Positions 8,031-22,689 of a stretch of 64,000 bases of DNA are shown piece by piece (position 1 is the first letter of the stretch; every line of letters starts with the position of its first letter). Where the stretch lies: assembly GCF_001447355.1 (NCBI RefSeq), contig NZ_JXBW01000011.1:1-64000 (forward strand), written 5' to 3'. The position numbers and the translations under genes were made by a program. This DNA comes from Alicyclobacillus tolerans (GTDB lineage Bacteria; Bacillota; Bacilli; Alicyclobacillales; Alicyclobacillaceae). Below the pieces are notes generated by a model, which worked only from the letters and a program-made list of their open reading frames with translations, did not search any database and was not told where the DNA came from.

Positions 8031-8076
8031 AATAGCCTGCTGCTGGCCATCACGACTCGCCAGCCAGCAGGCTATT
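8031..8076. terminator. Bidirectional terminator between glpX and the DUF1932 gene
   Basis: Long stem (AATAGCCTGCTG.TGGC against GCCA.CCAGCAGGCTATT) with an 11-base loop, between two convergent genes that end at 8016 and 8085. The minus strand continues TTGTTCTAGTTTTC. Confidence 0.8.
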
Positions 8077-8084
8077 CTCGCTTG

Positions 8085-8951
8085 TCACTCCACGCCGTTT
8101 GCCAAGCGACGGATGGCGTCCTGCGGTGAACGCGAACTTGCCGCTGGCCACGCTTGTTGCCGATCCGCCGACCAATGCAAGCGTTTTGCCGCTCCCTCTG
8201 CCACAAGCGGATCGATGCCTGCGCTTTTCAAAGTTTTGACTGCCTCGTCCATCTCGTGCGCCCGCCGTTCACCGTGCTGTAAGTTGCGCTCGACGAGATA
8301 CCATGCCAGCGTTGAAAGTTGGTGCTGGGGAAAAGATGCGTCGAGCGAAGCCAGCATATCTGCGGTGACCCCGTACCTTTCTGCGGCGACAAGCGCCTCG
8401 ATGAACAAGGCCTCCAGGCCTTTGAGCACGGTGCTTCGGCACATCTTCAACGCGGCTCCGGATCCAATCTCTCCGGCCAAGACCGAAATCTTGCACCCAT
8501 ATGGGCGAAGGGCTGCGGCAAAAGCCTCGGCTCCCGGCCCGTCGGCGATCATTGGCACGCGATGGCGATGGGGTCCCACGGCTGACATTACAGCGACAGA
8601 GGCAAACCATGCACCAGCTTGCGCTCGATGCACGACTTCCCCAATTTCGCGCTTCACGGCTGGCGAACAGGAGTTCAGATCGGCATACACCTGCCCGGGC
8701 TGTAAATACGGCGCAATGGTACGTGCCACGTCTGCCGCGACGCTCGCCGTGACCATGGACAAAACCACATCGGCTTGTGCACAAGCATCCTTGGCACTGT
8801 CGAGAAGCTGGACGCCAGCCGCCAGTGCGCGCCCTTCCATACTGCCGTTCTGCATGGCATCATACGCAACCATCTGTGCCAGGCCTGCTTCATGTAGGCC
8901 CAGTGCGATGGTCGACGCCGCTTCACCAAACCCGATGAAACCTAGTCGCAC
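8085..8951 (-). CDS. NAD(P)-dependent oxidoreductase, 6PGDH-type NAD domain plus DUF1932
   Basis: 288 residues. N-terminal Rossmann domain of the 6-phosphogluconate/3-hydroxyisobutyrate dehydrogenase type (LGFIGFGEAA, then VVLSMVTASVA), a central GSGAALKMCRSTVLKGLEAL helix carrying the catalytic-lysine position, and a C-terminal DUF1932 helical domain. GTG start 6 bases after GGGAGGGTGA; it overlaps the aldolase gene by 10 bases. Last gene of the dioxygenase operon. By position it is the obvious candidate to oxidise a ring-cleavage semialdehyde or hemiacetal, a job done by the unrelated LigC in the 4,5-protocatechuate pathway; that role is inference. A hydroxyacid dehydrogenase acting on a side product is the alternative. 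Confidence 0.8.
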   Translation of the reverse strand: MRLGFIGFGEAASTIALGLHEAGLAQMVAYDAMQNGSMEGRALAAGVQLLDSAKDACAQADVVLSMVTASVAADVARTIAPYLQPGQVYADLNSCSPAVKREIGEVVHRAQAGAWFASVAVMSAVGPHRHRVPMIADGPGAEAFAAALRPYGCKISVLAGEIGSGAALKMCRSTVLKGLEALFIEALVAAERYGVTADMLASLDASFPQHQLSTLAWYLVERNLQHGERRAHEMDEAVKTLKSAGIDPLVAEGAAKRLHWSADRQQAWPAASSRSPQDAIRRLANGVE

Positions 8952-9649
8952 GGCTCACCCTCCCATTCGGATTGAGAGACCCAGGTCACGCCCATCGTTT
9001 TCAGTTTGTCGCGCAGACCGTAAATTTCCAACCCCAATTCACCACTCTGCAGGCGGGCGCGCGTTTTTTCCTCTTTTTCGATCCGCTGCTGTGCCAATCG
9101 TGCAATTTCTGCGGCACGTTCTTGTGGAACGCACACGACGCCGTCGGCATCTGCAACGATGATATCGCCAGGCCGAACCATCACACCTGCGCAGACGACG
9201 GGTACGTTCACGCTGCCAGGCGTCGCCTTCACCGTGCCCTGAGCGCTGACGGCGCGCGACCATACGGGAAAATGTAGCGCTGTCAAATCCGCCACATCGC
9301 GCACGCCTGCTTCGATGATGAGCCCCGTCACGCCATGCGCTTGCATCGAAGTCGCGAGCAGTTCACCAAACATGCCGTCGGTGGACGGCGACGTGGTTGT
9401 GACAACGACCAGGTCTCCGGGTTCAGAGACATCTAGTGAAGCGTGAATCATGACGTTGTCGCCAGGGTGGCTCAATACGGTGACCGCTGTGCCAAATGCT
9501 TTAGCGTCAGGGTAAATAGGACGCATGTACGGCAGCATGAGACCACTTCGCCCCATTGCCTCGTGTAACGTTGCGACCGAGTAACTTCCAATTCGCGCCA
9601 CGAGGTCTCGATCCGGACGACGAATGTTGGTTACAATCACGGGTTTCAT
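8942..9649 (-). CDS. RraA-family aldolase, 4-carboxy-4-hydroxy-2-oxoadipate aldolase-like
   Basis: 235 residues of the RraA/HMG-CHA aldolase superfamily (LigK, GalC, ProA). Such class II aldolases split 4-carboxy-4-hydroxy-2-oxoadipate into pyruvate and oxaloacetate with a divalent metal. Signature segments are SYSVATLHEAMGR, the GLIIEAGVRDVADL loop with the catalytic Arg-Asp, and VRPGDIIVADADGVVCVP. I start at ATG 9649 (GGAGGTGCG upstream); the longer frame has no ribosome site. It overlaps the GalB-like gene stop as ATGA, so the two are translationally coupled. The pairing with a GalB-type hydratase strongly favours the CHA aldolase role over a ribonuclease-regulator (RraA) role. Confidence 0.84.
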   Translation of the reverse strand: MKPVIVTNIRRPDRDLVARIGSYSVATLHEAMGRSGLMLPYMRPIYPDAKAFGTAVTVLSHPGDNVMIHASLDVSEPGDLVVVTTTSPSTDGMFGELLATSMQAHGVTGLIIEAGVRDVADLTALHFPVWSRAVSAQGTVKATPGSVNVPVVCAGVMVRPGDIIVADADGVVCVPQERAAEIARLAQQRIEKEEKTRARLQSGELGLEIYGLRDKLKTMGVTWVSQSEWEGEPCD

Positions 9650-10362
9650 ACGAACGCACCTCCGACCGATGGGAAGACGCGTTGATAAGCTTCCGCGTAC
9701 ACGATGGGCTGCCCGGAATTGCGCCCTGCCTGAACACCGCGCCGCTTTGCGACGTCGGTGTAATACGCCCAAAGATGTTCCTGCGCCTGCATGCACTCCA
9801 TAGCTTGGAGCTTCTTGTCGAAGACCGATGTGATATCGAGGAGTAGATCAATGCGAAATTGGCACTGTTCTGGTTGGTGTGGTTCGAAGGAGTATAACTG
9901 CGGCGCGCCAATGGGAGGATAGTCCGATGGATACCCGTGGGCCTGTGCCAGAATGCGCGCTTCGCGAACCAGTTCTGCCGTGCGTGGGTGATCGGCGTTG
10001 TACGGATCGAGAAAGGTATGCGTAAGGATAACGTCTGGGCGATGAGCACGGATCTCTTGAACCAGGCCGTCACGAAGCTCCGGCGTAACGTCGATTGGAT
10101 AGTCGCCAACGTCAAAGAACCGAATGTCTGCACCGAGAATGGCCGCCGCCTGTTCCGCTTCCGCACGGCGGATGGCCTTGATCTCCTCCAGGATCTTCCC
10201 GTCTTTCCACAGGCGGGCCGACTCACCGCGTTCGCCAAAGCTTAAGCAGAGCACCCGCACTTTCCAACCTTGTGAACTATGCAGCGCAATGGCGCCACCT
10301 GCCCGCCACACGAAATCGGCTGCATGGGCACTGACGACAAATAGTGTTCCGGGTTGTGACAT
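9646..10362 (-). CDS. galB: PIG-L/LmbE-family protein, GalB-like 4-oxalomesaconate hydratase
   Basis: 238 residues of the LmbE zinc-hydrolase fold. Instead of the AHPDD motif of typical deacetylases it has SAHAADFVWRAGGAIAL, the form I recall in Pseudomonas putida GalB, which hydrates 4-oxalomesaconate to 4-carboxy-4-hydroxy-2-oxoadipate in gallate catabolism. GERGESARLW and THTFLDPYNADHPRT follow. ATG at 10362 lies 8 bases after GAGGAGGA. The downstream ATGA-overlapping gene encodes the aldolase for the GalB product. An MshB/BshB-like deacetylase role is unlikely given the motif and context, although a bacillithiol deacetylase is missing from the bshA locus at 56 kb. Confidence 0.82.
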   Translation of the reverse strand: MSQPGTLFVVSAHAADFVWRAGGAIALHSSQGWKVRVLCLSFGERGESARLWKDGKILEEIKAIRRAEAEQAAAILGADIRFFDVGDYPIDVTPELRDGLVQEIRAHRPDVILTHTFLDPYNADHPRTAELVREARILAQAHGYPSDYPPIGAPQLYSFEPHQPEQCQFRIDLLLDITSVFDKKLQAMECMQAQEHLWAYYTDVAKRRGVQAGRNSGQPIVYAEAYQRVFPSVGGAFV

Positions 10363-10421
10363 CTTCTTCGTCCTCCTCACAGTCTCTATATAAGAAAAAT
10401 AGATGTACAAGTGCGACGACA

Positions 10422-11327
10422 TTACAACGAAACCAAGCGGGCTGGGTTGTCGACGAGCATCCTGCGCACATCTGCTTCCGAAACGGATGCGGCAAGCAAT
10501 CTTTCGGCATAGTCGATGAGTCCATCCACGATGCCGGGATTCGTTTTTTGGCCGAGGTCTGTCGATAACAGCGTGCGCTCCGGACCCACCGCGCGGATCG
10601 CCTCATACAGCTGATCCCATGTGCATTTGTTGGTGTAGAACGTCGTGTAACAGTGTTCAATGGTCGCCCCCATCTCTGCAAGACGCACCTGATCGGCAAT
10701 AGAAAGCGCCTCCGAAGGGAACAAGGCGTGCGTGACAATCACGCGATCGACGCCAATTTCACGCGCCGCTTCAACCACCGCAAAAATTTCATCGCGGGCC
10801 AAGTGACCTGTGGCGAGCACCATCTTGTATTGGCGAATGAGTTCAAGGCAGGCCCGCACATCGTCGCGTATTTGTCCGCGCTCATCGAGCACGGACAGTG
10901 GTGCAGTCGCGATGCCTTGCGCCCGCACTTCTTCTTGAATGCGCACCCAAAATGGCAAATGTGCGGCTCCGCGGGCCTTTTGCTTCTCTGGGCTCTCATT
11001 GGCTGCATCGACCGTCGGCAACCATACAATGCGGGCACCGGCGCGCCCTGCAATGTCGACGACGACAGGATTAAAACCGCCCACCGTGTGATTCAGCGCG
11101 ATCGCGCCGATGACGTCGACGCCCGGTACGACGGAGGAAACCACTTTCGCTCGCTCAACCGTCGGAAAATAGTGCGATTTGAGCGCAAAACCTCGCCAGC
11201 CGATGGCATTGAACTGATGTGCGAGTGTCACGTCGTCGATGCTGCGCTCCACTAGATCCGGCCAGACGTGAACGTGTAAATCATACGCTCCTGCCAACAG
11301 GCGGATGATGTGTTCGGATTGAGGCAT
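10422..11327 (-). CDS. DUF6282 TIM-barrel metal-dependent hydrolase-like protein
   Basis: 301 residues. The N terminus has DLHVHVWPD, an H-x-H metal motif typical of amidohydrolase-like barrels; later come ATGHLARDE, VTHALFPSE and STDLGQKTNPG, which supply further His and Asp positions at barrel-strand ends. I place it in DUF6282, a family of unknown function as far as I know. ATG at 11327, with AAGGGTGGG upstream. Gene order places it between the regulator and the GalB-like hydratase. In the 4,5-protocatechuate pathway the step before the hydratase is a pyrone lactonase (LigI, an amidohydrolase), so a lactonase or hydrolase role is a reasonable guess only. Confidence 0.72.
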   Translation of the reverse strand: MPQSEHIIRLLAGAYDLHVHVWPDLVERSIDDVTLAHQFNAIGWRGFALKSHYFPTVERAKVVSSVVPGVDVIGAIALNHTVGGFNPVVVDIAGRAGARIVWLPTVDAANESPEKQKARGAAHLPFWVRIQEEVRAQGIATAPLSVLDERGQIRDDVRACLELIRQYKMVLATGHLARDEIFAVVEAAREIGVDRVIVTHALFPSEALSIADQVRLAEMGATIEHCYTTFYTNKCTWDQLYEAIRAVGPERTLLSTDLGQKTNPGIVDGLIDYAERLLAASVSEADVRRMLVDNPARLVSL

Positions 11328-11377
11328 GAAATGAAGCCCACCCTTTCTGAAAATAAGAAGTACAATTATGCAGACAA

Positions 11378-11391
11378 AATTGTTGACAATT
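11378..11391. promoter_or_regulatory. Candidate GntR-family operator
   Basis: AATTGT-TG-ACAATT is a perfect 6+2+6 palindrome in the 95-base gap between the GntR gene and the DUF6282 gene. A related half-site pair TTGT-N3-ACAA lies near the dioxygenase promoter at 13149-13159. TTGT..ACAA cores are common in FadR-subfamily operators, so autoregulation by the neighbouring GntR protein is likely. Confidence 0.5.
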
Positions 11392-11422
11392 CAGGGTGTG
11401 ACAAAGAAAACCATCTGCGAGG

Positions 11423-12070
11423 TCAGGGCCCTGACCTCATCTTGCGCAACGTATCACAAACATGCGACAGATGTTTGCGCATCGCTTGCTCTGCAGCATC
11501 CGCGTCGCGCCCCGCAATGGCCTGCACAATGGCGGTGTGCTCCAGGAGCGAGGGATGCGAGCGGCCAGGGGCAAGAATGGTTCGATATTGGTAGCGGACG
11601 TTTTGTGAGTTGAGCGTATCGAGCAGTCGGCGCGCCGTCGAGTGGCGAGACATCTCGGCAATCGTGCGGTGCAATCGGGCATTACCCTCTGAATACGAAA
11701 CGAGATCTCCCTCTTCGAATTTTTCACGCATCCATCCCAAGAGTTCCTCAATTTTGTCGATCTCGTCATCAGTTGCACGCTCTGCCGCGTAGCGAGCAAT
11801 GATGCATTCCAGCGCCATGCGTACCTCCAAAATCTCGACCGCTTCCTCGTGGGATACGTGGCGCACACGCGCACCGCGATAGCGCTCGCGTTCAACCAAT
11901 CCCTCTTGTTCCAGGCGCGCCAATACCGTGCGCACCGTCGCGCGGCTCGCCCCGAGCCAACGCGCCAAGTCCATTTCCACCAGGCGCTGTGCCGGCATCA
12001 ACGTACCGTCGACAATCGCCGTCCGCAGTTTTCGATAGCATTCGTCTTCTGTGTACCCCTGGCTCTGCAT
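11423..12070 (-). CDS. GntR-family transcriptional regulator, FadR (FCD) subfamily
   Basis: About 215 residues. N-terminal winged HTH (YRKLRTAIVDGTLMPAQRL, then WLGASRATVRTVLARLEQE) and a C-terminal all-helical FCD ligand domain with the usual Arg/His metal or ligand pocket (ARLHRTIAEMSRH, then KHLSHVCDTLR). The start is uncertain: ATG at 12070, TTG at 12076 (better spaced from AAGGCGGTG), or TTG at 12100. It sits second in the dioxygenase operon, 49 bases or fewer downstream of the dioxygenase stop, so it probably controls this operon in response to an aromatic acid or a ring-cleavage product. Confidence 0.87.
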   Translation of the reverse strand: MQSQGYTEDECYRKLRTAIVDGTLMPAQRLVEMDLARWLGASRATVRTVLARLEQEGLVERERYRGARVRHVSHEEAVEILEVRMALECIIARYAAERATDDEIDKIEELLGWMREKFEEGDLVSYSEGNARLHRTIAEMSRHSTARRLLDTLNSQNVRYQYRTILAPGRSHPSLLEHTAIVQAIAGRDADAAEQAMRKHLSHVCDTLRKMRSGP

Positions 12071-12119
12071 TTCCAAGAGCCGGCACCGCCTTTCCGACAA
12101 CTTCTGCTTTTATGCACAG

Positions 12120-13067
12120 TTATACCACAGGCGTGCCGTAATGATGGAAACTTTCTACGGTCTTGTTACCCCAGGCCTGCCCACGTGCGCGCTCTTCCTC
12201 CGTCCACGTGATGGGCTGCCAATCCGGGGCGAGCACGAGGTAGCCGCCGGAACAGATTTCGATCCGGTTGCCTCCAGGTTCGTAAACATATACAAAGTAA
12301 GTCTGGTTAATTGCGTGTTTGCTTGGGGCGAACTCAATGAAAACACCAGCGTCGACAAACAAGTCGGCTGCGCGCCAAATGGCTTCGTTGGTATCGACGC
12401 GAAAGGCGATGTGGTGCAGGCGGCCACGCGCACCTGTGGCATCCTGAGTATAGACGAGGTCGTAAGATTTATTGGTGCAGCGATACCACACGCCCGGACG
12501 GCGACCATTGTTGAGCTGGATCTGCTCTGTGAGGCGCAGACCGAGGTACTTCTCGACAAAATCGCCGTCTGCCTCGGCATGCGAGGATAGATAGTTGACA
12601 TGATCCATAGTCTTGACTCCGACGCCGCGACCGGTAAACTTCTGTGGCTGATTCTTAAGTGTTGGTCGCAGGTCTGCGGATGGCTGGTAATGCTCGGTCT
12701 CATAATAGAGTTCCATAAGGTGGCCGTCCGGACCATGAAACGCGTACGCGCGTCCATGTCCGACATCGCCTTCATGCCACCTGCCCTCAATCCCAGCCAT
12801 GGTAACAGCCTGCACACGCCGTTCTAACGCGGCCTCGCTCGCGGCGCGCAAAGCCGTGTGGCCCACGCCGGCGTGGTCAGACTCTGTCAATTTGATGGAA
12901 TAGCGTTCATAGTCTCCAAAGCAACGCAAATACACCGATTGCCCTTGCCGAGCGACTTCTTCCATGCCCAGGACTTCACGAAAAAACCAGAGGCTTTCAT
13001 CAGGCTTTGGAGTCAGCAGTTCGACGTGGCCCACATGGGCAATATCGAAACACAAGTCATTGCTCAC
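12120..13067 (-). CDS. Extradiol ring-cleavage dioxygenase, VOC type (catechol 2,3-dioxygenase-like)
   Basis: 315 residues with two vicinal-oxygen-chelate modules. The N-terminal module starts HVGHVELLTPKPDESLWFF; the catalytic C-terminal module has the Fe(II) or Mn(II) ligands His in KTMDHVNYL, His in LHHIAFRV and Glu in GNRIEI. Cleaves a catechol-type ring next to the hydroxyls with O2. The substrate is not readable; homoprotocatechuate, catechol and substituted catechols are all cleaved by relatives. GTG start at 13067 with a modest GGTGA. First gene of the 13.07-8.09 kb operon. The genome also encodes an unrelated class III enzyme (19589-20401) for protocatechuate, so this enzyme probably handles a different diol. 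Confidence 0.88.
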   Translation of the reverse strand: MSNDLCFDIAHVGHVELLTPKPDESLWFFREVLGMEEVARQGQSVYLRCFGDYERYSIKLTESDHAGVGHTALRAASEAALERRVQAVTMAGIEGRWHEGDVGHGRAYAFHGPDGHLMELYYETEHYQPSADLRPTLKNQPQKFTGRGVGVKTMDHVNYLSSHAEADGDFVEKYLGLRLTEQIQLNNGRRPGVWYRCTNKSYDLVYTQDATGARGRLHHIAFRVDTNEAIWRAADLFVDAGVFIEFAPSKHAINQTYFVYVYEPGGNRIEICSGGYLVLAPDWQPITWTEEERARGQAWGNKTVESFHHYGTPVV

Positions 13068-13146
13068 ACCGTTTCACCATCCTGTTCCAAGACGGCAACC
13101 TGTCGCCGTCTGCAAGGCATTCACCCGCTTCTGTTTTGATACGCAA

Positions 13147-13162
13147 TATTGTATGACAAAAT
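13147..13162. promoter_or_regulatory. Second candidate GntR-type site downstream of the dioxygenase promoter
   Basis: TTGT-ATG-ACAA inverted repeat (13149-13159) just downstream of the predicted -10 box of the dioxygenase operon, where a bound repressor would block transcription. It resembles the palindrome at 11378 but with a 3-base spacer. Confidence 0.38.
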
Positions 13163-13175
13163 AGTATGCAACTTC

Positions 13176-13204
13176 ATTCTGCATGTACAGAGGTCATTTG
13201 TCAA
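13176..13204 (-). promoter_or_regulatory. Sigma-A promoter of the dioxygenase operon
   Basis: On the minus strand, a perfect TTGACA -35 (13199-13204), 17-base spacer and CAGAAT -10 (13176-13181). About 110 bases upstream of the dioxygenase start. Confidence 0.6.
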
Positions 13205-13298: not shown

Positions 13299-14243
13299 TT
13301 ATGTGTGTGTCAAACCGAACAGATTGCGTACCGCTCCATCGTCAAACCCGATAGGCGGCCACGCCTTCAAATCAAATGGATAGTCTGAACCGGGTAGCAC
13401 ACGTTCCTTTCCGGCGACGCTGCAAAGCAATTGCAACGCCTCCGCCGACCACAGCACGCTGTCGTACCAAAAGCGCCGCATATAGCTGGCTGGTTCGTCG
13501 TTCAGGCGCGCCTTGATCTGCGGCCAAACCTCGTATCCTTTGTTCAGACGCCCTAATTGGTATGGCAGAAAACCGCCGCCGTGCGCCAACAGGACACGCA
13601 TGTTAGGATATCGATCGAGAATGCCACCAAGGATCAGATCAAGCGCTGAAATGGTCGTCTCCCACGGAACGCCAATCAGATTGGGCATCATGAGTCGTTG
13701 AATCCGTTTGTCGGTATTCAACAGCGGATGAAGAAAGACAATGGCTCCCAAACGATCAGCGACGGACCACAATTCCGCAAAGCGTTCGTCGCTGAGTGGA
13801 ATGTCACCGACGCCAGGACCGACGATGGCTCCTTTAAGCCCCCGTGCCATAGCCCTTTCAAGTTCATGACAAGCTGCATCTGGATCGTTTAACGGCAGCG
13901 TCGCCAAACCTGAGAGATGAGTGCGGTGGCTAGCTACGACACATGCTAAAGCTTCGTTATAAATCGCCGCAAGCTGTTTCGTCACTTCTGGCTCGACGTC
14001 ATAAAGGAACAATTGCGGAACCGGTGAAACAAGGGTGTGTTCGATGCCGTTGGCCGACTGATCCGCGAGGTACAAATCGAGATCGTAAAACGCGCGTTTC
14101 AGCTCGAATGACCACTTCCCGCCAACCGTCAGAAACGGTTCCTTGTCAGGCACTCTTTGCTCCCATACCGCATCGATGGCGCTAGTGGTCTTTAACCAGT
14201 CGAGAACCTCGTGTGGGATCCAATGCGAATGAACATCATACAT
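13299..14243 (-). CDS. praH: 5-Carboxy-2-hydroxymuconate-6-semialdehyde decarboxylase (ACMSD-like amidohydrolase)
   Basis: 314 residues, amidohydrolase-2 family related to 2-amino-3-carboxymuconate semialdehyde decarboxylase. Metal ligands visible are H-x-H in YDVHSHWIP, FLHPLLN, LAHGGGFLPYQ and PGSDYPFD. In the 2,3-protocatechuate pathway this enzyme decarboxylates the ring-cleavage product to 2-hydroxymuconate-6-semialdehyde, which needs no cofactor. Last gene of the praABEGFDCH run, 30 bases after the tautomerase gene. Assignment rests on family plus exact gene order; from sequence alone, other ACMSD-like decarboxylases or hydrolases would fit. Confidence 0.82.
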   Translation of the reverse strand: MYDVHSHWIPHEVLDWLKTTSAIDAVWEQRVPDKEPFLTVGGKWSFELKRAFYDLDLYLADQSANGIEHTLVSPVPQLFLYDVEPEVTKQLAAIYNEALACVVASHRTHLSGLATLPLNDPDAACHELERAMARGLKGAIVGPGVGDIPLSDERFAELWSVADRLGAIVFLHPLLNTDKRIQRLMMPNLIGVPWETTISALDLILGGILDRYPNMRVLLAHGGGFLPYQLGRLNKGYEVWPQIKARLNDEPASYMRRFWYDSVLWSAEALQLLCSVAGKERVLPGSDYPFDLKAWPPIGFDDGAVRNLFGLTHT

Positions 14244-14273
14244 GCCGTATCACCATCTCTTTAAAAGCCATGT

Positions 14274-14465
14274 TCAGGGCGAGGAGTCGGCCTTTGAAAC
14301 GCCGCCAACCGCCCAGTTTGCTTTGGGCATTTCGTAAAGCAGCACGCGCACAGCATCCGGCTGAACACCAAGTGTGCGAACGACGGCGTCCGTCACTTCC
14401 CGAATCAGTGCTCGTTTGGTCTCCGCGGATCGACCCTCAAGAATACTCATCTGTACTAATGGCAT
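14274..14465 (-). CDS. praC: 4-Oxalocrotonate tautomerase
   Basis: 63 codons, the usual size of 4-OT. After removal of Met the protein starts with the catalytic Pro1; Arg11 and Arg39 are both in place, and position 50 is Trp where Phe is usual. Converts 2-hydroxymuconate to 2-oxo-3-hexenedioate (4-oxalocrotonate). Small hexamer-forming enzyme. It lies after the decarboxylase gene across a 72-base gap that contains a GC-rich hairpin. Confidence 0.93.
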   Translation of the reverse strand: MPLVQMSILEGRSAETKRALIREVTDAVVRTLGVQPDAVRVLLYEMPKANWAVGGVSKADSSP

Positions 14466-14500
14466 GTCAAGACGCTCCTTTTATGAAACCCATCGTTAAG

Positions 14501-14523
14501 GAGGGGGCAAATAAGGCCCCCTC
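14501..14523 (-). other. Intra-operon hairpin between praD and praC
   Basis: Perfect 8-bp stem GAGGGGGC / GCCCCCTC with a 7-base loop and no T tract on either side. It may reduce read-through or stabilise an mRNA end, lowering expression of praC and praH relative to upstream genes. Confidence 0.45.
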
Positions 14524-14537
14524 GTTCGCGTGCAGGT

Positions 14538-15311
14538 TTATTGGCCAACCGTAAGTTCGATCTCGCCCATCCCTTCGAAGGAGACAGAGATCCGATCTCC
14601 ATCGTGAATGTAGATTGCCTCTGTAATGCCTCCGGTTAAGACAACCATACCGGGTTCCACAGCTTTACCGATGCGACTGAGCATCCGCACCTGCTCTACA
14701 ACGGAGCGCACTGGGTGGCCGAGAACGGCGGCACCGGCCCCGGTCTGCTCAACCTCTCCGTTTCGCCGCATAACGACACCAACTTGGTCAAGCGCAATTT
14801 GATAGGGCGAATATGCCTGCTCGGCGAGATAGAATTTCGCGCTGGACGCGTTGTCGGCGACGACGTCGACGAGCGTGAAGGAAAAATTTTTGTAACGGCT
14901 GTCGATGATTTCGACCGCAGGAACCACACACTCGGTCGCGAGCCAGACATCGCGGGGCAGGATCTTGTCGCCTTCCAGGCGGTGCTTGAAAATAAAAGCG
15001 AGTTCTGGCTCAACGCGCGGATGAATGAGCCCCGTGAGCGACACGTGAGGATCATATAACTCCATGCCGTCGAGCAGATGCCCGAAAATAGGCTCATCGA
15101 CACCAACTGATTGCTGCTTCGCCTTGCTCGTTAAACCCATCTTCCATCCGACAAGCTTTTGGCCTTCGTTCATGTACTTGCCCATGCAGAGCTGTTGGAT
15201 TTCGTACGCATCCTCGACAGACAGTCCTTCGTACCGAAGTGTCAGCTTTTCCAACTCGGCAGCGGACGTTTGATGTCGGTATAACTCGTCTGCAATCGCT
15301 TGTAAATTCAT
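14538..15311 (-). CDS. praD: 4-Oxalocrotonate decarboxylase (hydratase/decarboxylase family)
   Basis: 257 residues of the 2-oxopent-4-enoate hydratase / 4-oxalocrotonate decarboxylase family. Motifs include VGWKMGLTSKAKQQSVGVD, the metal-binding RVEPELAFI, VPAVEIIDSRY and TGAGAAVLGHP. The decarboxylase converts 4-oxalocrotonate to 2-hydroxypenta-2,4-dienoate with a divalent metal. ATG at 15311 lies 8 bases after GGAGG. The paralogue at 17269-18078 is the partner hydratase; in related systems the two form a complex. Which paralogue is which is assigned from gene order, not from diagnostic residues. Confidence 0.8.
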   Translation of the reverse strand: MNLQAIADELYRHQTSAAELEKLTLRYEGLSVEDAYEIQQLCMGKYMNEGQKLVGWKMGLTSKAKQQSVGVDEPIFGHLLDGMELYDPHVSLTGLIHPRVEPELAFIFKHRLEGDKILPRDVWLATECVVPAVEIIDSRYKNFSFTLVDVVADNASSAKFYLAEQAYSPYQIALDQVGVVMRRNGEVEQTGAGAAVLGHPVRSVVEQVRMLSRIGKAVEPGMVVLTGGITEAIYIHDGDRISVSFEGMGEIELTVGQ

Positions 15312-15345
15312 CGGTCCATCCTCCCAGAGCCTATCGGACAATCTA

Positions 15346-16365
15346 TTACTCCTGTCGATGTGCGATTTCGTACGCGACGTCGACAATCATATCTTCCTGC
15401 CCGCCCACCACGCGGCGATTGCCAAGTTCGACAAGGACGTCGCGAACATCGACGGAAAATTGTTCCGCCGCGCGCTGCGCGTGCAGCAAGAAGCTCGAAT
15501 AGACGCCAGCATAGCCCAACGTGAGTGCTGTGCGGTCGGTGATGATGGGCCGATGCATGCGCGGGCGCACGACATCTTCTGCAGCGTCCATGGCCGGATA
15601 CAGCGATACACCTGTGTCAATGCCGTACTTTTCGCTTGCTGCGACGAATACCTCAAGTGGTGTGTTGCCAGCGCCAGCACCCAAACCACCAAGGCTTGCA
15701 TCGATGCGATACGCGCCTTCTTCGACCGCCGCGATGGAATTGGCGACAGACACGCCCAGATTGTTGTGGGCATGAAAACCGACTTGCACGTCGTCTGGCA
15801 AAGCATTGCGCAGTGCCGATACCTTGCGGCGCACCTCATCCATCAACATGGCACCTGCCGAATCGACGATGTAGACGGCGTGTGCGCCGTACGATGCCAT
15901 TTTCTTTGCCTCTTCCACCAGCCGCTCGACATCGGTCATGTGCGACATCATCAAAAAACCAACAACATCGAGGCCCAACTTGCGACCCTCTTCGATGTGC
16001 TGTGCAGAAATGTCCGCCTCGGTCGAATGGGTAGCTACACGCACGCCGCGAATACCATACTCGACGGCCCGTTTAAGATCTTCCACCGTACCGATCCCCG
16101 GCAACAGGAGCGCCACGACCTTCGCGTTTTGAACCGCGCCGCACACCGCCTGCAGATAATCCGCTTCCGTTTCTTTTGAAAATCCATATTGCACCGAGCT
16201 ACCCCCGAGCCCATCGCCATGCGCCGCCTCGATCAGCGCGACCCCGGTGCTATCCAAGGCCGACGCGATTGCACGGGCATCTTCGACACTGAACTGATGG
16301 CGCACGGCGTGCATCCCGTCGCGCAGAGTGACATCCGTCACTTCAATCCGATATTTGTAGGCCAT
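15346..16365 (-). CDS. praF: 4-Hydroxy-2-oxovalerate aldolase
   Basis: 339 residues, DmpG/BphI family, HMGL-like TIM barrel. DVTLRDGMHAVRHQFS carries the catalytic Arg, Asp and His; GFHAHNNLGVS holds the metal-binding His pair. Splits 4-hydroxy-2-oxovalerate into pyruvate and acetaldehyde, which is channelled to the partner dehydrogenase. ATG at 16365 has GAGGAGGGA 7 bases upstream. It directly follows the acetaldehyde dehydrogenase gene, the usual arrangement of this bifunctional complex. Confidence 0.95.
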   Translation of the reverse strand: MAYKYRIEVTDVTLRDGMHAVRHQFSVEDARAIASALDSTGVALIEAAHGDGLGGSSVQYGFSKETEADYLQAVCGAVQNAKVVALLLPGIGTVEDLKRAVEYGIRGVRVATHSTEADISAQHIEEGRKLGLDVVGFLMMSHMTDVERLVEEAKKMASYGAHAVYIVDSAGAMLMDEVRRKVSALRNALPDDVQVGFHAHNNLGVSVANSIAAVEEGAYRIDASLGGLGAGAGNTPLEVFVAASEKYGIDTGVSLYPAMDAAEDVVRPRMHRPIITDRTALTLGYAGVYSSFLLHAQRAAEQFSVDVRDVLVELGNRRVVGGQEDMIVDVAYEIAHRQE

Positions 16366-16378
16366 AAATGTTCCCTCC

Positions 16379-17263
16379 TCACTGGTTGACCGTAGCCCGG
16401 TGCTTGGCATACTCCTCAGCGAACTTGACTGCAGCCGCCGTCATGATGTCGAGGTTTCCTGCATAGACCGGCAAATAATCGCCGAGGCCTTCGACCTCAA
16501 TGGAGACGCTGACCAAGTTGTCGCGAAAAATCGGTTCGCGATTGAGGCGATAACCTGGAACATAGGTCTGCACGTGGCTCACCATTTCGCGAATGGACGC
16601 AAGAACCTTTTGCCTTGTCTCCTCTGATGCGTCGTCCATCAAACAATAAATGGTATCTCGCATCAAAATGGGCGGTTCAGCCGGATTGAGGATGATAATC
16701 GCTTTGCCGCGACGAGCCTTGCCGATGGTTTCAATGGCCCGTGAAGTCGTCTCCGTAAACTCATCGATGTTTGCTCGTGTCCCTGGGCCGGCGCTCTTAC
16801 TCGCAATAGTCGCAACGATCTCGGCATACGACACGCCGACTACACGGCTGACCGCATATACGATAGGAACAGTTGCCTGGCCGCCACACGTGACCATATT
16901 GACATTTGGAGATTCAAGATGCTCCTGCAAATTCACCGCCGCGATCACGTACGGTCCGCGCGCGGCAGGCGTCAAGTCGACGGCCTGGATTCCTGCCTCG
17001 CGTAACAATTTCGCATGACGCACGTGTGCTTTCGCACTTGTTGCATCGAAAACGATATCCGGACGCACCCCGGCTTTAAGCATGGCAGCCAAGCCTTCCG
17101 CAGAGATTTCGAGACCGGCGTTTTTCGCACGGCGCAGCCCGTCCGACTCCGGATCGATGCCAATCATCCACCGTGGTTCAATCCATTCGCTACGCTGTAA
17201 CTTCACCATCAAATCAGTGCCGATGTTGCCCGATCCGACAATCGCAGCTGCTAATTTTGTCAT
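16379..17263 (-). CDS. praG: Acetaldehyde dehydrogenase (acylating)
   Basis: 294 residues, DmpF/BphJ family. Rossmann motif [15 protein letters not shown] at the N terminus and active-site Cys in [15 protein letters not shown]. Converts acetaldehyde, NAD+ and CoA to acetyl-CoA, receiving the toxic aldehyde through a tunnel from the aldolase encoded next door. ATG at 17263 is preferred: GGGGGTG lies 6 bases before it, whereas ATG at 17278 has none. The hydratase gene ends 6 bases upstream. Confidence 0.95.
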
Positions 17264-17268
17264 ATTGG

Positions 17269-18078
17269 TCACCCCCATGAAGACTCAGACAAGTTCGCCT
17301 TGGCCAGGGTGAATTCGACACGCCCCAATCGGCCGAAGGAAAGTGCGACATGATCGCCGGACCGCACGGGTACTGCGGCGCTGACCGCACCAGAGAGCAC
17401 AATGTCACCCGCACGCAAGGTCGTGCCCAAAGACGCCAACTTATTCGCCAACCAGGCCACCGCAATTGCTGGATGCCCCATCACAGCGGCTCCCGCCCCG
17501 GTCTCCACGACTTCGCCATTGACTTTGAGCACTGCCCCACAGGTCGTTAGATTGGTATCACCAACCGGCGTCGGTTCGTCCCCTAATACAAAACAACCAG
17601 CCGATGCATTGTCTGCGATGGTGTCTGCCAAACGAATTTTCCAGTCGGCGATTCGACTGTCGATAACTTCGAGCGCAGGTACGACAGCGCGTGTCGCACG
17701 CAAGACGGCATCAGCGTCGACATGCGGCCCTGGTAGATCCTCTGCCAGCACAAACGCCAGTTCGGGCTCAACCTTCGGTTGAATCAGAGGAAAGTCGACA
17801 ATGTCGCGAGAACGGTACTGCATCGAGGCAAATAGATGTCCAAAGTCGGGCTCGTTGACGCCGAGCATGCGCTGCATCGGCTTACTCGTCAGTCCAATCT
17901 TATGACCCACGACGCGATCGCCAGCTTGTTGCTTCTTGTGGGCATTCAGCAATTGGATTTGGTACGCAACTTCCATCGACATGTCGGGATATCGTTCTGT
18001 CAACGGCGGGATCGTGCGCAACGCACGCTCCGCCGCAAACAGTTCAGCCGCCAAATCTTCCATTTGAAATACCGACAT
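17269..18078 (-). CDS. praE: 2-Hydroxypenta-2,4-dienoate (2-oxopent-4-enoate) hydratase
   Basis: 269 residues, same family as the gene at 14538 but clearly diverged. Motifs [43 protein letters not shown] and [11 protein letters not shown]. Adds water to 2-hydroxypenta-2,4-dienoate to give 4-hydroxy-2-oxovalerate. ATG at 18078 with GGGGTGATG upstream. It lies directly before the dehydrogenase/aldolase pair, as expected for the hydratase that feeds them; the split of roles with praD is by position. Confidence 0.82.
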
Positions 18079-18091
18079 CACCATCACCCCG

Positions 18092-19528
18092 TTACAACTT
18101 GATGCAGACATTTTTCAATTCCGAGAAGAACTCGAAGCTGTGTACTCCGCCCTCGCGGCCGATACCACTTTGTTTCATGCCGCCAAAAGGCGTGCGCAGA
18201 TCGCGTAGGAACCATGTATTCACCCAAATCACGCCCGCTTCGATCTCGCCAGCGACACGATGTGCCCGCTTCAGATTGGACGTCCAGATGGTAGCCCCTA
18301 AGCCGTAATTTGTGTCGTTGGCGATGGCAATGACTTCTTCTTCTGTGTCGAACGGTTGAATGGTCACAACAGGACCAAAGACCTCTTGGCGCGTGATTTC
18401 ACACGAAGAGTCGACGTCGACGATGATGGTGGGCTCGAAAAACGCGCCGTGTTTCAGATGTTCAGGGCGCTTACCGCCAATCAGGATGCGGCCGCCCTGT
18501 TCGACCGCACGTCGCACGAATCCTTCGACGCGCTCCAGGTGTTCGAAAGAGATAAGAGCGCCGACGTTCGTATTTGGATCAAGCGGATCGCCAACAACGA
18601 GTTGTGCGGTCTTCTCGACCAACCCGGCGACGAAGCGGTCATACAATGGACGCTCGACATAAATGCGCGAGCCACATAAACACACTTCACCCTGGTTGAC
18701 AAAGCTGGAGCGAATCGTCGTCGTCAAAGCATCTTCGAGATCACAATCCGCAAAGACGATGTTCGGGTTTTTGCCGCCGAGTTCCAAAGATAGGCGCTTG
18801 AGCGACGAAGCTGCAGATTTCATCACGGCTTTGCCTGTCGTCGTCTCACCCGTAAGCGAGATCAGATCGACATCTGGATGTTCGGTCAAGGCAGATCCGG
18901 CAGCGTCTGGGCCGAAGCCGTGCACAACGTTGACAACGCCATCTGGCACACCTGCCTTTTGGCAGATTTCAGCCAATTTCGTCGCCGTCATCGGCGTCAA
19001 TTCGGCCGGCTTGATCACGCAGGTATCGCCTGCGGCCAAACACGGCGCAACCTTCCATGTCAACAAAAACAAAGGCAAGTTCCACGGTGAAATAAGGCCC
19101 GCCACACCGACTGGTCTGCGCAGGGCGTAGTTCAGCGCGACGCCCTCCATTTCGAACGCCTCTGTGCTCATGCCTTTCACAAAGTCGGCAAAAAAACGAA
19201 AATTGTAAGCCGACCGTGGGATGTCGAGACTCTTTGCCAGTGATAGCGGCTTGCCGGTGTCCGTCGTCTCAAGAAGAGCCAATTCATCCAGATTTTCTTC
19301 GATCAAATCGGCGATCCGATGCATAATGGCAGCTCGTTCTGCCGCGGATGTCTTGCCCCACGTCTTAAACGCTCGGCGTGCAGCGGCGACAGCCTGATCG
19401 ATTTCCGCTTTGCCACCTTCCGCAACAACACCGATCTTTTCACCGGTTGCTGGGTTAAAATTGTCAAATGTGCGGCCGTCTTGCGACTCGCAAAATGTGC
19501 CGTCGATAAAATGCAATACCTTTTCCAT
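18092..19528 (-). CDS. praB: 2-Hydroxymuconate-6-semialdehyde dehydrogenase
   Basis: 478 residues of the aldehyde dehydrogenase superfamily, XylG/DmpC type. NAD site ISPWNLPLFLLTWK and GFGPDAAGSAL, catalytic Glu in LELGGKNPN, catalytic Cys in NQGEVCLCGS, and C-terminal FGGMKQSGIGREGG. Oxidises 2-hydroxymuconate semialdehyde to 2-hydroxymuconate with NAD+. ATG at 19528 with GGGAG 7 bases upstream; the 60-base gap to praA suggests co-transcription. Confidence 0.93.
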   Translation of the reverse strand: MEKVLHFIDGTFCESQDGRTFDNFNPATGEKIGVVAEGGKAEIDQAVAAARRAFKTWGKTSAAERAAIMHRIADLIEENLDELALLETTDTGKPLSLAKSLDIPRSAYNFRFFADFVKGMSTEAFEMEGVALNYALRRPVGVAGLISPWNLPLFLLTWKVAPCLAAGDTCVIKPAELTPMTATKLAEICQKAGVPDGVVNVVHGFGPDAAGSALTEHPDVDLISLTGETTTGKAVMKSAASSLKRLSLELGGKNPNIVFADCDLEDALTTTIRSSFVNQGEVCLCGSRIYVERPLYDRFVAGLVEKTAQLVVGDPLDPNTNVGALISFEHLERVEGFVRRAVEQGGRILIGGKRPEHLKHGAFFEPTIIVDVDSSCEITRQEVFGPVVTIQPFDTEEEVIAIANDTNYGLGATIWTSNLKRAHRVAGEIEAGVIWVNTWFLRDLRTPFGGMKQSGIGREGGVHSFEFFSELKNVCIKL

Positions 19529-19588
19529 ACGTTCTCCCTCACCTGTGTTCGTGTTGTGATTGCAAAAATAGAATGCGCCGAAAACCAA

Positions 19589-20401
19589 TCAGACAACGTC
19601 GGCATAACGCATCGTGAGAACAGGATTACCCGATCCCGATGACGGACCGTAACCGTGCAGTTCTCCAGTAAACTGCTTGCGCAGCACGCCAAGTAAGACA
19701 GCAACGTGCCGCCCTCCAGACTCGACGCCTGCAGCTCGCACATACGATGGCAGCATAGAAACCGCGGAAGCCTTGTCTCCGTTGACAAGGTATTGGCAAA
19801 ACTCGCGGTCAAGCGCCTGCTCTGTGATGTTTGGCCACAGTTCCGGCCCCCGACCGAGGTTGTGCGCAAGCGCGCCACTGGCGAGAAATACGACACGCAA
19901 TGGGCTGTTGAGGAATACTTCCCCCATCACTTCGCCCCATCGAATCGACTCGTCGAGTGAGGCCGCCCAGCAGACGGACAAATCCACAACCGGGATGTCG
20001 GGACGCTTGAGCAAATAACGAAGTGGCACAACGGTGCCGTAGTCCCAGATGTAGGTCGGATCATCAATCCCAACAACCTGAAGTCCGGCAGCCTTCCCTG
20101 CTTCCACCAGCTGACGCCCCAGTTCCGGGTGTCCAGGGTGATTGTATGCAACGTCGGTAATTAAATCCGGGCACTCGACTGCGGTCAAAACGCCTTGATG
20201 CGAAGGCGTAATGTCGACATAATGGATGAAGCTAGACATCCAGTGACACGAGATGAGCACGATGACATCTGGGTTGACCTCATCGATGATGTCAGCGCAT
20301 TTCAACATGGCGTCCACCATCGGTTTTTGAAATTCAGGGATTCGATCCCGATGGCAAATGCGCGGTGTGTGCGGCGTGATCATCGCCAGTTCAAGACTCA
20401 T
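19589..20401 (-). CDS. praA: Protocatechuate 2,3-dioxygenase, class III (LigB-type) extradiol enzyme
   Basis: 270 residues of the LigB superfamily, unrelated to the VOC-type enzyme at 12120. The N terminus has MITPHTPRICHRD, followed by VLISCHW and VAYNHPGHPELG; the conserved His residues bind Fe(II). The central LASGALAHNLGRGPELWP contains the general-base His. Opens protocatechuate between C2 and C3 to 5-carboxy-2-hydroxymuconate-6-semialdehyde. ATG at 20401 has GGAGG 8 bases upstream. First gene of the operon; the substrate is supported by the adjacent 4-hydroxybenzoate hydroxylase and ACMSD-like decarboxylase, matching the pra set known from Paenibacillus. Confidence 0.85.
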   Translation of the reverse strand: MSLELAMITPHTPRICHRDRIPEFQKPMVDAMLKCADIIDEVNPDVIVLISCHWMSSFIHYVDITPSHQGVLTAVECPDLITDVAYNHPGHPELGRQLVEAGKAAGLQVVGIDDPTYIWDYGTVVPLRYLLKRPDIPVVDLSVCWAASLDESIRWGEVMGEVFLNSPLRVVFLASGALAHNLGRGPELWPNITEQALDREFCQYLVNGDKASAVSMLPSYVRAAGVESGGRHVAVLLGVLRKQFTGELHGYGPSSGSGNPVLTMRYADVV

Positions 20402-20499
20402 GGCGACTTCCTCCCTTTTTCACATATCGGTGCAGCCTACCGACAGCAATGGTCGTCCTTGTGCCGCGACGCGACGCTTCGGTGTAACGCCTCGCATTG

Positions 20500-20528
20500 A
20501 TCGTAGCACTAGGCAAACGGTTACAATA
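20500..20528 (-). promoter_or_regulatory. Promoter of the praA operon
   Basis: Minus strand: TATTGT (-35, 20523-20528), 17-base spacer, TACGAT (-10, 20500-20505). The -35 is poor, as expected for an activated promoter, and lies exactly 6 bases downstream of the 19-bp palindrome at 20535. The leader to praA is about 90 bases. Confidence 0.55.
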
Positions 20529-20534
20529 CAATCT

Positions 20535-20553
20535 TGTTTCTCTATGCGGAACA
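20535..20553. promoter_or_regulatory. Candidate PraR operator (praA/praR intergenic)
   Basis: TGTTTC-N7-GGAACA near-palindrome, 19 bp, identical at 17 of 19 positions to the site at 22696 upstream of praI. Both sites lie 6 bp upstream of their -35 box. Best explained as the binding site of the adjacent IclR-type regulator. Confidence 0.65.
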
Positions 20554-20621
20554 GCGCGAACCTCATGTCTCAAAAGCTCGATTGCCAAAAATTCTATCCG
20601 TCCTCGAGGAGGGACACCATC

Positions 20622-21407
20622 ATGGAGCGTCAAGCGGCAGATTATAGAACTTTGTCATCGCTAAAAAATGCTTTGCACGCATTGAAGTGCTTTACTCCTG
20701 AAGATCCGGAACTTGGTATCACGCAGATAGCGGATAAGCTCGGATTATCGAAAAGCACTGTCCACCGCGTCATGACGACGCTCGCCGAAGAAGGATTTGT
20801 ACGGCGCGATGAACAGACGCACAGATACCGCCTGGGACTTTCCGTCCTCAGCCTGGGTGGCATCATTATGTCGAATCTCGAAATATGCCGGGAAGGACAG
20901 CATCTCCTTGAGGAATTCGTCAATCGCTTTGACGAAACCGTTCATCTTGCAGTGCTCGAAGATTACGCAACAGTCTATGTGAGCAAGCTGGAGTGCAAGC
21001 ACCCAGTGCAGATTGCCACGCACCTTGGCCGAAAAAATCCTTTGCACTGCACCAGTTCGGGCAAGGTCATCCTCGCCTACCAGGACAGCACCGTGATTGA
21101 CGAGGTGATCCGGCGCGGGTTGCGCGCAATGACGCCAAACACCATTACCCATCCCGACATACTGCGGCAGCTTTTGTCCCAAATTCGGAAAGACGGGTAC
21201 GCGTTTAGCCAAAGTGAATTGCGCGAAGGTGTTCACTCCGTCGCCGCCCCAGTACGAGATTACACGCGGCAGGTCATTGGCGCTGTCACCGCGGTCGGGC
21301 CCGCTGCGCGGTTTACGCCCGAAAAAATGAAATCGCTGGCCAAGACGCTGGTGTCCATCAGCAAGGAAATCTCGCATCGACTCGGGTATTACGAACGAAC
21401 CCGTTGA
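20622..21407 (+). CDS. praR: IclR-family transcriptional regulator of the pra genes
   Basis: 261 residues. N-terminal winged HTH (about 25-75: ITQIADKLGLSKSTVHRVM) and a C-terminal IclR effector domain (about 85-255) with KNPLHCTSSGKVILAY, SQSELREGVHSVAAPVRD and a GAVTAVGPAARF strand. IclR members such as PcaU, PobR and PcaR regulate aromatic catabolism and bind small aromatic acids. ATG at 20622 has GAGGAGGG 8 bases upstream. Divergent from praA across a 220-base region and convergent with praI (stops 4 bases apart). The shared 19-bp palindrome upstream of both praA and praI points to activation of both units. Confidence 0.9.
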   Translation: MERQAADYRTLSSLKNALHALKCFTPEDPELGITQIADKLGLSKSTVHRVMTTLAEEGFVRRDEQTHRYRLGLSVLSLGGIIMSNLEICREGQHLLEEFVNRFDETVHLAVLEDYATVYVSKLECKHPVQIATHLGRKNPLHCTSSGKVILAYQDSTVIDEVIRRGLRAMTPNTITHPDILRQLLSQIRKDGYAFSQSELREGVHSVAAPVRDYTRQVIGAVTAVGPAARFTPEKMKSLAKTLVSISKEISHRLGYYERTR

Positions 21408-21411
21408 CGCA

Positions 21412-22689
<1,278 letters not shown>

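Follow-up and report, generated by a model that had tools for sequence, protein, structure and literature searches.

A locus in Alicyclobacillus tolerans raises the question of which aromatic ring is opened, and by what route, by an operon whose last two catalytic steps can be named from sequence and whose other enzymes differ in family from the textbook ones. The window, a stretch of 64,000 nucleotides from contig C3 of a 2.81 Mb genome, carries six genes, all on the minus strand, between positions 8085 and 13067. The original prediction had described them as a candidate meta-cleavage operon, and their place, strand and families were borne out:

12120-13067, minus strand: VOC (class I) ring-cleavage dioxygenase of the Tyr202 clade (Glyoxalase 83.9 bits; TIGR03211 332.4)
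11423-12100, minus strand: GntR/FCD regulator (FCD 109.9 bits, GntR 54 bits)
10422-11327, minus strand: DUF6282 protein, proposed pyrone-dicarboxylate lactonase (PF19799 224.3 bits; structural model and fold; slot argument)
9646-10362, minus strand: GalB-type hydratase of the PIG-L family (5cgz, 281 bits)
8942-9649, minus strand: RraA/LigK protein, HMG-CHA aldolase (above two curated cut-offs)
8085-8951, minus strand: DUF1932 dehydrogenase, proposed semialdehyde dehydrogenase in the LigC role (63 bits over 25)

With a probability of about 0.58, the operon encodes a complete protocatechuate-4,5-type meta-cleavage route built partly from non-orthologous enzymes. This six-gene set of a heat-loving bacterium probably opens a plant-derived aromatic ring and converts it to ordinary metabolites. 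On sequence grounds, the set is real and widespread and represents a known pathway with some steps taken by non-orthologous enzymes, in which two steps are identified by sequence and two are argued from the slots that the genes occupy (for DUF6282, also from fold). Judged by DUF6282, the window is closest among named relatives to Alicyclobacillus hesperidum (98%) and A. sacchari (90%), in a comparison from which records of the window's own genome were possibly left out.

The enzymes of the protocatechuate 4,5-cleavage pathway are named LigAB, LigC, LigI, LigU, LigJ and LigK in Sphingobium SYK-6 and Pmd in Comamonas. The operon resembles this pathway in the hydratase and LigK at its end and in the order that its enzymes would follow (dioxygenase, dehydrogenase, lactonase, hydratase, aldolase), whereas it differs in having VOC for LigAB, DUF1932 for LigC, DUF6282 for LigI and GalB for LigJ, with no LigU. 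In the proposed route, the VOC enzyme would cleave the ring of protocatechuate, or of a similar catechol bearing a carboxyl group, giving 4-carboxy-2-hydroxymuconate semialdehyde, the cyclic hemiacetal of which would be oxidised with NAD(P)+ by the DUF1932 protein, in a LigC-like role, to 2-pyrone-4,6-dicarboxylate. DUF6282, an amidohydrolase-type barrel, would hydrolyse this lactone in a LigI-like role. GalB would then hydrate the product of pyrone opening, and LigK would cleave the result to pyruvate and oxaloacetate; these last two steps are the ones assigned by sequence.

The hydratase and the aldolase are indeed what they had been predicted to be. GalB (5cgz) matches the PIG-L protein with 281 bits over query residues 28-253, the next structure reaching 41 bits, and by sequence the protein is firmly assigned to the GalB type, as a predicted 4-oxalomesaconate (4-carboxy-2-hydroxymuconate) hydratase. 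The aldolase exceeds both curated cut-offs (TIGR02798, 305.5 vs 304.5; NF006731, 341.8 vs 179), and its assignment as a LigK/CHA aldolase is equally firm. LigK alone would not settle the pathway because homologues of the aldolase are reported in genomes without such clusters. The gallate pathway of Pseudomonas putida (GalA, GalD, GalB, GalC) is similar in its GalB-type hydratase and GalC/LigK aldolase; unlike it, the operon has neither a GalA-type dioxygenase nor GalD, and it includes a dehydrogenase and a hydrolase in addition.

Independent assembly of a 4,5-type route, one of the two possibilities originally offered, explains the locus best, since the slots filled here by DUF1932, GalB and VOC are taken in sister operons by LigC, LigJ and a LigB-type dioxygenase. 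When 84,980 species were scanned, each represented by one genome, 283 relatives of DUF6282 emerged, of which the best 80 loci (L069-L148) were kept and classified with profile models built from these loci, with score limits set in visible gaps. Of these 80, 50 are core loci, in which LigK and a hydratase are encoded within 8 kb and on one strand; among the remaining 30 are short contigs and loci where DUF6282 has a different setting, for example beside an aldehyde dehydrogenase. In the core loci, the hydratase is GalB (43) or LigJ (seven), never both, and the dioxygenase is VOC (16) or LigB-type (23), again never together. The dehydrogenase is DUF1932 in 21, a short-chain dehydrogenase/reductase (SDR) in seven, LigC-type in seven and DUF1932 plus LigC in one. 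The replacements are found in Acidobacteria, where VOC is replaced by a LigB-type dioxygenase, DUF1932 by LigC or an SDR, and GalB by LigJ, while DUF6282 and LigK remain constant. These sister operons, which hold LigC, LigJ and LigK, link the gene set to the lig pathway, and DUF6282 sits with LigC in seven of them. The LigC label is based on PmdC (9azo, 268 bits) and the LigJ label on 2gwg (536 bits). The LigB-type protein reaches only 61 bits with gallate dioxygenase and LigB and 86 bits with a phenylpropionate-catechol dioxygenase, which does not settle its substrate. LigJ is matched in 9 of 297 genomes of the Acidobacteria phylum, and neither LigC nor LigI was matched in the stretches around four Acidobacteria LigJ genes (L179-L182).

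These genes also travel together across phyla, which supports the original prediction. The full set VOC-DUF6282-GalB-LigK-DUF1932 occurs in 16 of the 80 loci, from Alicyclobacillus, Thermogemmatispora, Meiothermus, Thermus and one Solibacter metagenome-assembled genome (MAG). Among 15 VOC operons (14 of these 16 plus that of Thermus oshimai, with L072 and L080, truncated VOC, dropped), the pairwise distances of the five genes correlate with r 0.86-0.95, and for each pair none of 2000 permutations was as high. Between A. hesperidum and Thermogemmatispora (L074), a member of another phylum, identities are 81% for VOC, 69% for DUF6282, 78% for GalB, 61% for LigK and 56% for DUF1932, compared with 77, 73, 89, 78 and 54% between A. 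hesperidum and A. fructus. Since two genes (VOC and DUF1932) are more similar to those of the other phylum and three to those of A. fructus, transfer of the gene set between phyla is likely, although its course would have been mixed.

The classical LigC and LigI are missing, as had been noted. Instead of a LigC-type GFO/IDH dehydrogenase the operon has DUF1932, and a single LigI query, which recovers its own record and has hits in 18 of 45 further genomes, gave no match in the window genome at E 0.01. The DUF1932 protein scores 63 bits with PF09130 (cut-off 25), and Lys169, which we take to be the catalytic lysine, is invariant in 29 of 29. Its nearest solved relative, at 293 bits, is 3qsg, a close one that carries the generic name 'NAD-binding phosphogluconate dehydrogenase-like protein'. 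DUF1932 is present in 16 of 16 VOC operons compared with 4 of 23 LigB-type operons, and in L215 and L218 it still lies beside VOC though LigK is elsewhere.

The TIM-barrel hydrolase of the original prediction has a counterpart in the predicted structure of DUF6282, which fold comparison places among amidohydrolase/lactonase-type barrels. The model shows a metallo-TIM barrel whose strands 5, 6 and 8 carry His, His and Asp, as in the amidohydrolase superfamily, and H20, H175, H200 and D257 are invariant. LigI is not among the 50 matches listed in that comparison, which excludes nothing. Of 151 related genomes, 34 have a DUF6282 match at E 0.001, and in 31 of these it exceeds the cut-off. By role only, DUF6282 is comparable with LumW of the riboflavin (lum) pathway (LumE, LumW, LumY, LumX), which, in the excerpt of PMC12746152, likewise has extradiol cleavage to a pyrone, followed by a metal-dependent hydrolase for that pyrone and then by a hydratase and an aldolase; the lum substrate and products differ, and the hydratase described there is a cupin. 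In L153, L246, L247 and L045 (L045 by eye), an HpcH-type aldolase gene comes after a distant member of the DUF6282 family, with a cupin gene nearby in L153, L246 and L045, a layout resembling LumW-LumX-LumY of riboflavin breakdown. Another DUF6282 subfamily adjoins GlcD/GlcF-like oxidase genes in L035, L036 and L043, and in L035 and L036 an MBL-fold-like gene as well (by eye).

The first enzyme of the route, as expected, belongs to a superfamily other than that of LigAB, namely VOC and not the class II LigAB type. With class I catechol 2,3- and homoprotocatechuate 2,3-dioxygenases it shares the 2-His-1-Glu metal triad (H156, H219, E270) and second-sphere His251 and Tyr260, all kept in 26 of 26 clade members in an alignment from which proteins of 250 aa or fewer were dropped, which excludes L072. 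Unlike these enzymes, it is linked to LigK in operons, and the usual second-sphere acid-base His is replaced by Tyr202 in all 26 members. The His of L225, which shares its alignment column with Tyr202, is the aligned counterpart of His200 in homoprotocatechuate dioxygenase. Outside homologues have His there in 15 of 16 rows (13 of 14 after removal of two duplicates), the exception being L223, a 51% identical VOC protein with Tyr at the acid-base position. In a FastTree tree the node of Tyr enzymes has low support (0.52). Homoprotocatechuate dioxygenase without His200 has a vanishingly small rate, according to the excerpt of PMC10760822, and His200 is said in that of PMC6308299 to be one of three residues favouring extradiol over intradiol cleavage. 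A 'catechol 2,3-dioxygenase' label is therefore unsafe for an enzyme with Tyr202 in this place, and unusual regiochemistry is possible. Identity as an HpaD enzyme was rejected (TIGR02295, 184.7 vs a cut-off of 321.4). The Tyr-bearing homologue of L223 (8872-9846) adjoins fumarylacetoacetase-like and flavin-reductase-like genes (named by eye) and perhaps belongs to another pathway of the clade. A more specific claim is that this Tyr-bearing class I clade carries out 4,5-type cleavage of protocatechuate, that DUF1932 and DUF6282 evolved independently to make and open 2-pyrone-4,6-dicarboxylate, and that the set is common to Bacillota, Chloroflexota, Deinococcota and Acidobacteriota; this we advance tentatively, at somewhat short of even odds.

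A number of observations weigh against the 4,5-type route, and they are set out in this and the following three paragraphs together with the explanations that they favour. The VOC protein exceeds the cut-off for catechol 2,3-dioxygenase (TIGR03211, 332.4 vs 320.2), and its nearest solved chain, 9wgj, was deposited as 'Catechol 1,2-dioxygenase'; 9wgj also has Tyr at the acid-base position. Upstream of the operon, on the same strand (13299-20401), lies a 2,3-type meta-cleavage cluster that includes a LigB-family dioxygenase. Such a cluster also adjoins in several relatives, 19 of the 20 Alicyclobacillaceae genomes with VOC have its dioxygenase, and in L214 VOC and GntR come after it without GalB or LigK. 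Within the family, it is possible that VOC is a catechol dioxygenase feeding this cluster. VOC would then be a plain catechol 2,3-dioxygenase making 2-hydroxymuconate semialdehyde, which the 2,3 cluster also makes and would process, and DUF6282, GalB, LigK and DUF1932 would form a separate module acting on a pyrone or tricarboxylic acid taken up from outside; VOC is indeed missing from the DUF6282-GalB-LigK loci L040, L041 and L056, and from L144 and L147, where transporter genes adjoin. Yet Tyr replaces the catalytic His throughout the clade, and outside the family seven of eight genomes have the whole set with VOC and no DmpG-type aldolase (at 1e-40; the window genome has one), Thermus brockianus having both. 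A separate module is also at odds with DUF1932 in every VOC operon and with strong VOC never occurring without strong LigK: in 34 of the 41 family genomes (the remaining seven being without strong VOC) both are present in 20, LigK alone in one, VOC alone in none and neither in 13. On balance, this explanation is unlikely.

The slots are not filled in all loci. Eleven of the 50 core loci have no dioxygenase and 14 no dehydrogenase of the families counted, and the dehydrogenase slot is not strictly exclusive, as DUF1932 occurs with LigC in L125 and L136 and with an SDR in L093 and L107. VOC homologues of 73-75% identity are present in seven genomes without DUF6282 (G004, G006, G007, G012, G017, G026 and G032; G026 is 62% complete), where the neighbours of VOC vary; in G007 the genes VOC-GntR-GalB-LigK lie together, but DUF6282 and DUF1932 are both missing beside them. 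Moreover, in a second operon, read in six genomes and found in five (G001, G004, G006, G012, G032), an alpha/beta hydrolase occupies the place of DUF6282 between a LigB-type dioxygenase and GalB-LigK. DUF6282 is therefore rejected as an obligatory member, being contradicted both by the VOC genomes that lack it and by the alpha/beta-hydrolase operons.

The alpha/beta-hydrolase operons, some of which have genes resembling those of demethylases and formaldehyde dehydrogenases nearby (by eye), favour another substrate: gallate, 3-O-methylgallate or some other methylated or trihydroxylated acid, cleavage of which would give an ester or oxalomesaconate directly. DUF6282 would then be a (methyl)esterase or other ring hydrolase and not a pyrone lactonase. 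The core loci without a dehydrogenase fit this substrate, as does the lack of a PobA (4-hydroxybenzoate 3-monooxygenase) match in Thermogemmatispora. Such a route would make a dehydrogenase needless, yet DUF1932 is in all 16 VOC operons, and DUF6282 occurs together with LigC in seven operons; the explanation is rather improbable, slightly more so than the preceding one. At L233-L237 (the same five genomes), the LigB-type dioxygenase of the second operon has 320 aa, and Rieske demethylase-like, formaldehyde-dehydrogenase-like and RidA-like genes lie near some copies (by eye), so that this operon may serve methoxylated aromatic acids. A RidA-like gene also recurs beside VOC or a DUF6282 core (by eye; L040 14291-14671, L216 3366-3746, L217 6493-6891) and might handle a keto-enol intermediate.

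Further difficulties concern the tautomerase and the lactonase. No LigU-type tautomerase is encoded in the operon, and the single PrpF-family gene identified in the genome (G000 contig C2, L183 8341-9507) lies in a cluster resembling those for tricarballylate utilisation (tcu; by eye), distant from the operon. Both facts, together with the constancy of DUF6282 across operon types, would be expected if DUF6282 were itself a tautomerase in the LigU/GalD role and the pyrone were opened by an unseen enzyme. However, a hydrolase-type barrel with four invariant residues speaks for a different chemistry, and genomes lacking a LigI match would then have nothing in place of LigI; such a role is highly improbable. 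As a remote LigI homologue DUF6282 was rejected (hhalign E 0.17 over 44 columns, low alignment diversity), and likewise as a remote LigJ homologue (E 0.89, low alignment diversity). LigI-like genes are located elsewhere in the genome in four of the seven LigC-LigJ genomes; in 12 stretches around the stronger Acidobacteria matches, searched with our own profile models, no other lig family was found beside them. Many Acidobacteria records are MAGs or short contigs. In the open-licence literature, where absence is weak evidence, no paper was found on DUF6282 or 9WGJ and no relevant one on DUF1932.

The ring-cleavage substrate is the least certain part of the predicted 4,5-type pathway. It had been argued that this substrate is not simply protocatechuate because a complete 2,3-pathway adjoins, an argument that was not supported: PobA is encoded directly upstream of VOC in Meiothermus (L143) and one small gene away from the operon on the Thermus oshimai plasmid pTHEOS01, and the DmpG-type aldolase is absent from most outside genomes, as described above. 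In the window, an IclR gene on the other strand follows the 2,3 cluster, and beyond it lies PobA (21412-22602; NF006091, 600 bits over 351; TIGR02360, 532.2, just below 538.7). Two ring-cleavage routes are thus adjacent (13299-22602 beside the operon). PobA is matched in 13 of 22 genomes at 1e-60. At that threshold it was not found in G032, G033, G016 and G161, nor in four Thermogemmatispora genomes and the Solibacter MAG; these absences again count against protocatechuate or leave it open, and those in Thermogemmatispora and the Solibacter MAG make a route for an undescribed catechol, the other original proposal, possible. Catechol meta-cleavage is described for some Alicyclobacillus genomes in the excerpt of PMC9296663.

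If the 4,5-type route is correct, functions would follow for DUF6282 and for a DUF1932 subfamily, hence for the solved but generically named 3qsg, and an automatic 'catechol 2,3-dioxygenase' label would be corrected. Three steps would be carried out by enzymes of families other than the textbook ones, two of these families having had no assigned function so far, and a pathway relevant to lignin would have at least two unrelated forms for four of its five catalytic steps. The natural His-to-Tyr change bears on oxygen activation by extradiol enzymes. Because 2-pyrone-4,6-dicarboxylate is wanted as a polymer building block, thermophile enzymes that make and open it would be useful.

GalB and LigK overlap by four bases (ATGA) and LigK and DUF1932 by 10; VOC and GntR are 19 bases apart if the first TTG is the GntR start, and the gaps between GntR and DUF6282 and between DUF6282 and PIG-L are approx. 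95 and 60 bases, respectively. The longest open reading frame of PIG-L begins at 10422, and an ATG at 10362 behind GAGGAG gives 238 aa, as also annotated in several relatives. Three features flank the genes:

13176-13204, minus strand: promoter-like site TTGACA-17-CAGAAT (10/12 consensus matches)
13149-13159, strand not assigned: TTGTCATACAA, possible operator of the GntR/FCD regulator, suggested by its recurrence upstream of VOC
8031-8051, minus strand: terminator-like hairpin downstream of the last gene (DUF1932)

A clear TTGACA promoter had been predicted; the TTGACA site is present ahead of the first gene, but the CAGAAT -10 box is weaker than 'clear' implies. Three promoter-like sites occur in the 600-base stretch, compared with a mean of 0.7 in shuffles. 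The operator candidate is found upstream of VOC in the window and in L069, L070, L071 and L073, and in none of the other upstream stretches compared; a shared operator of all operons was rejected on this distribution. The GntR protein is likely a local regulator of the operon.

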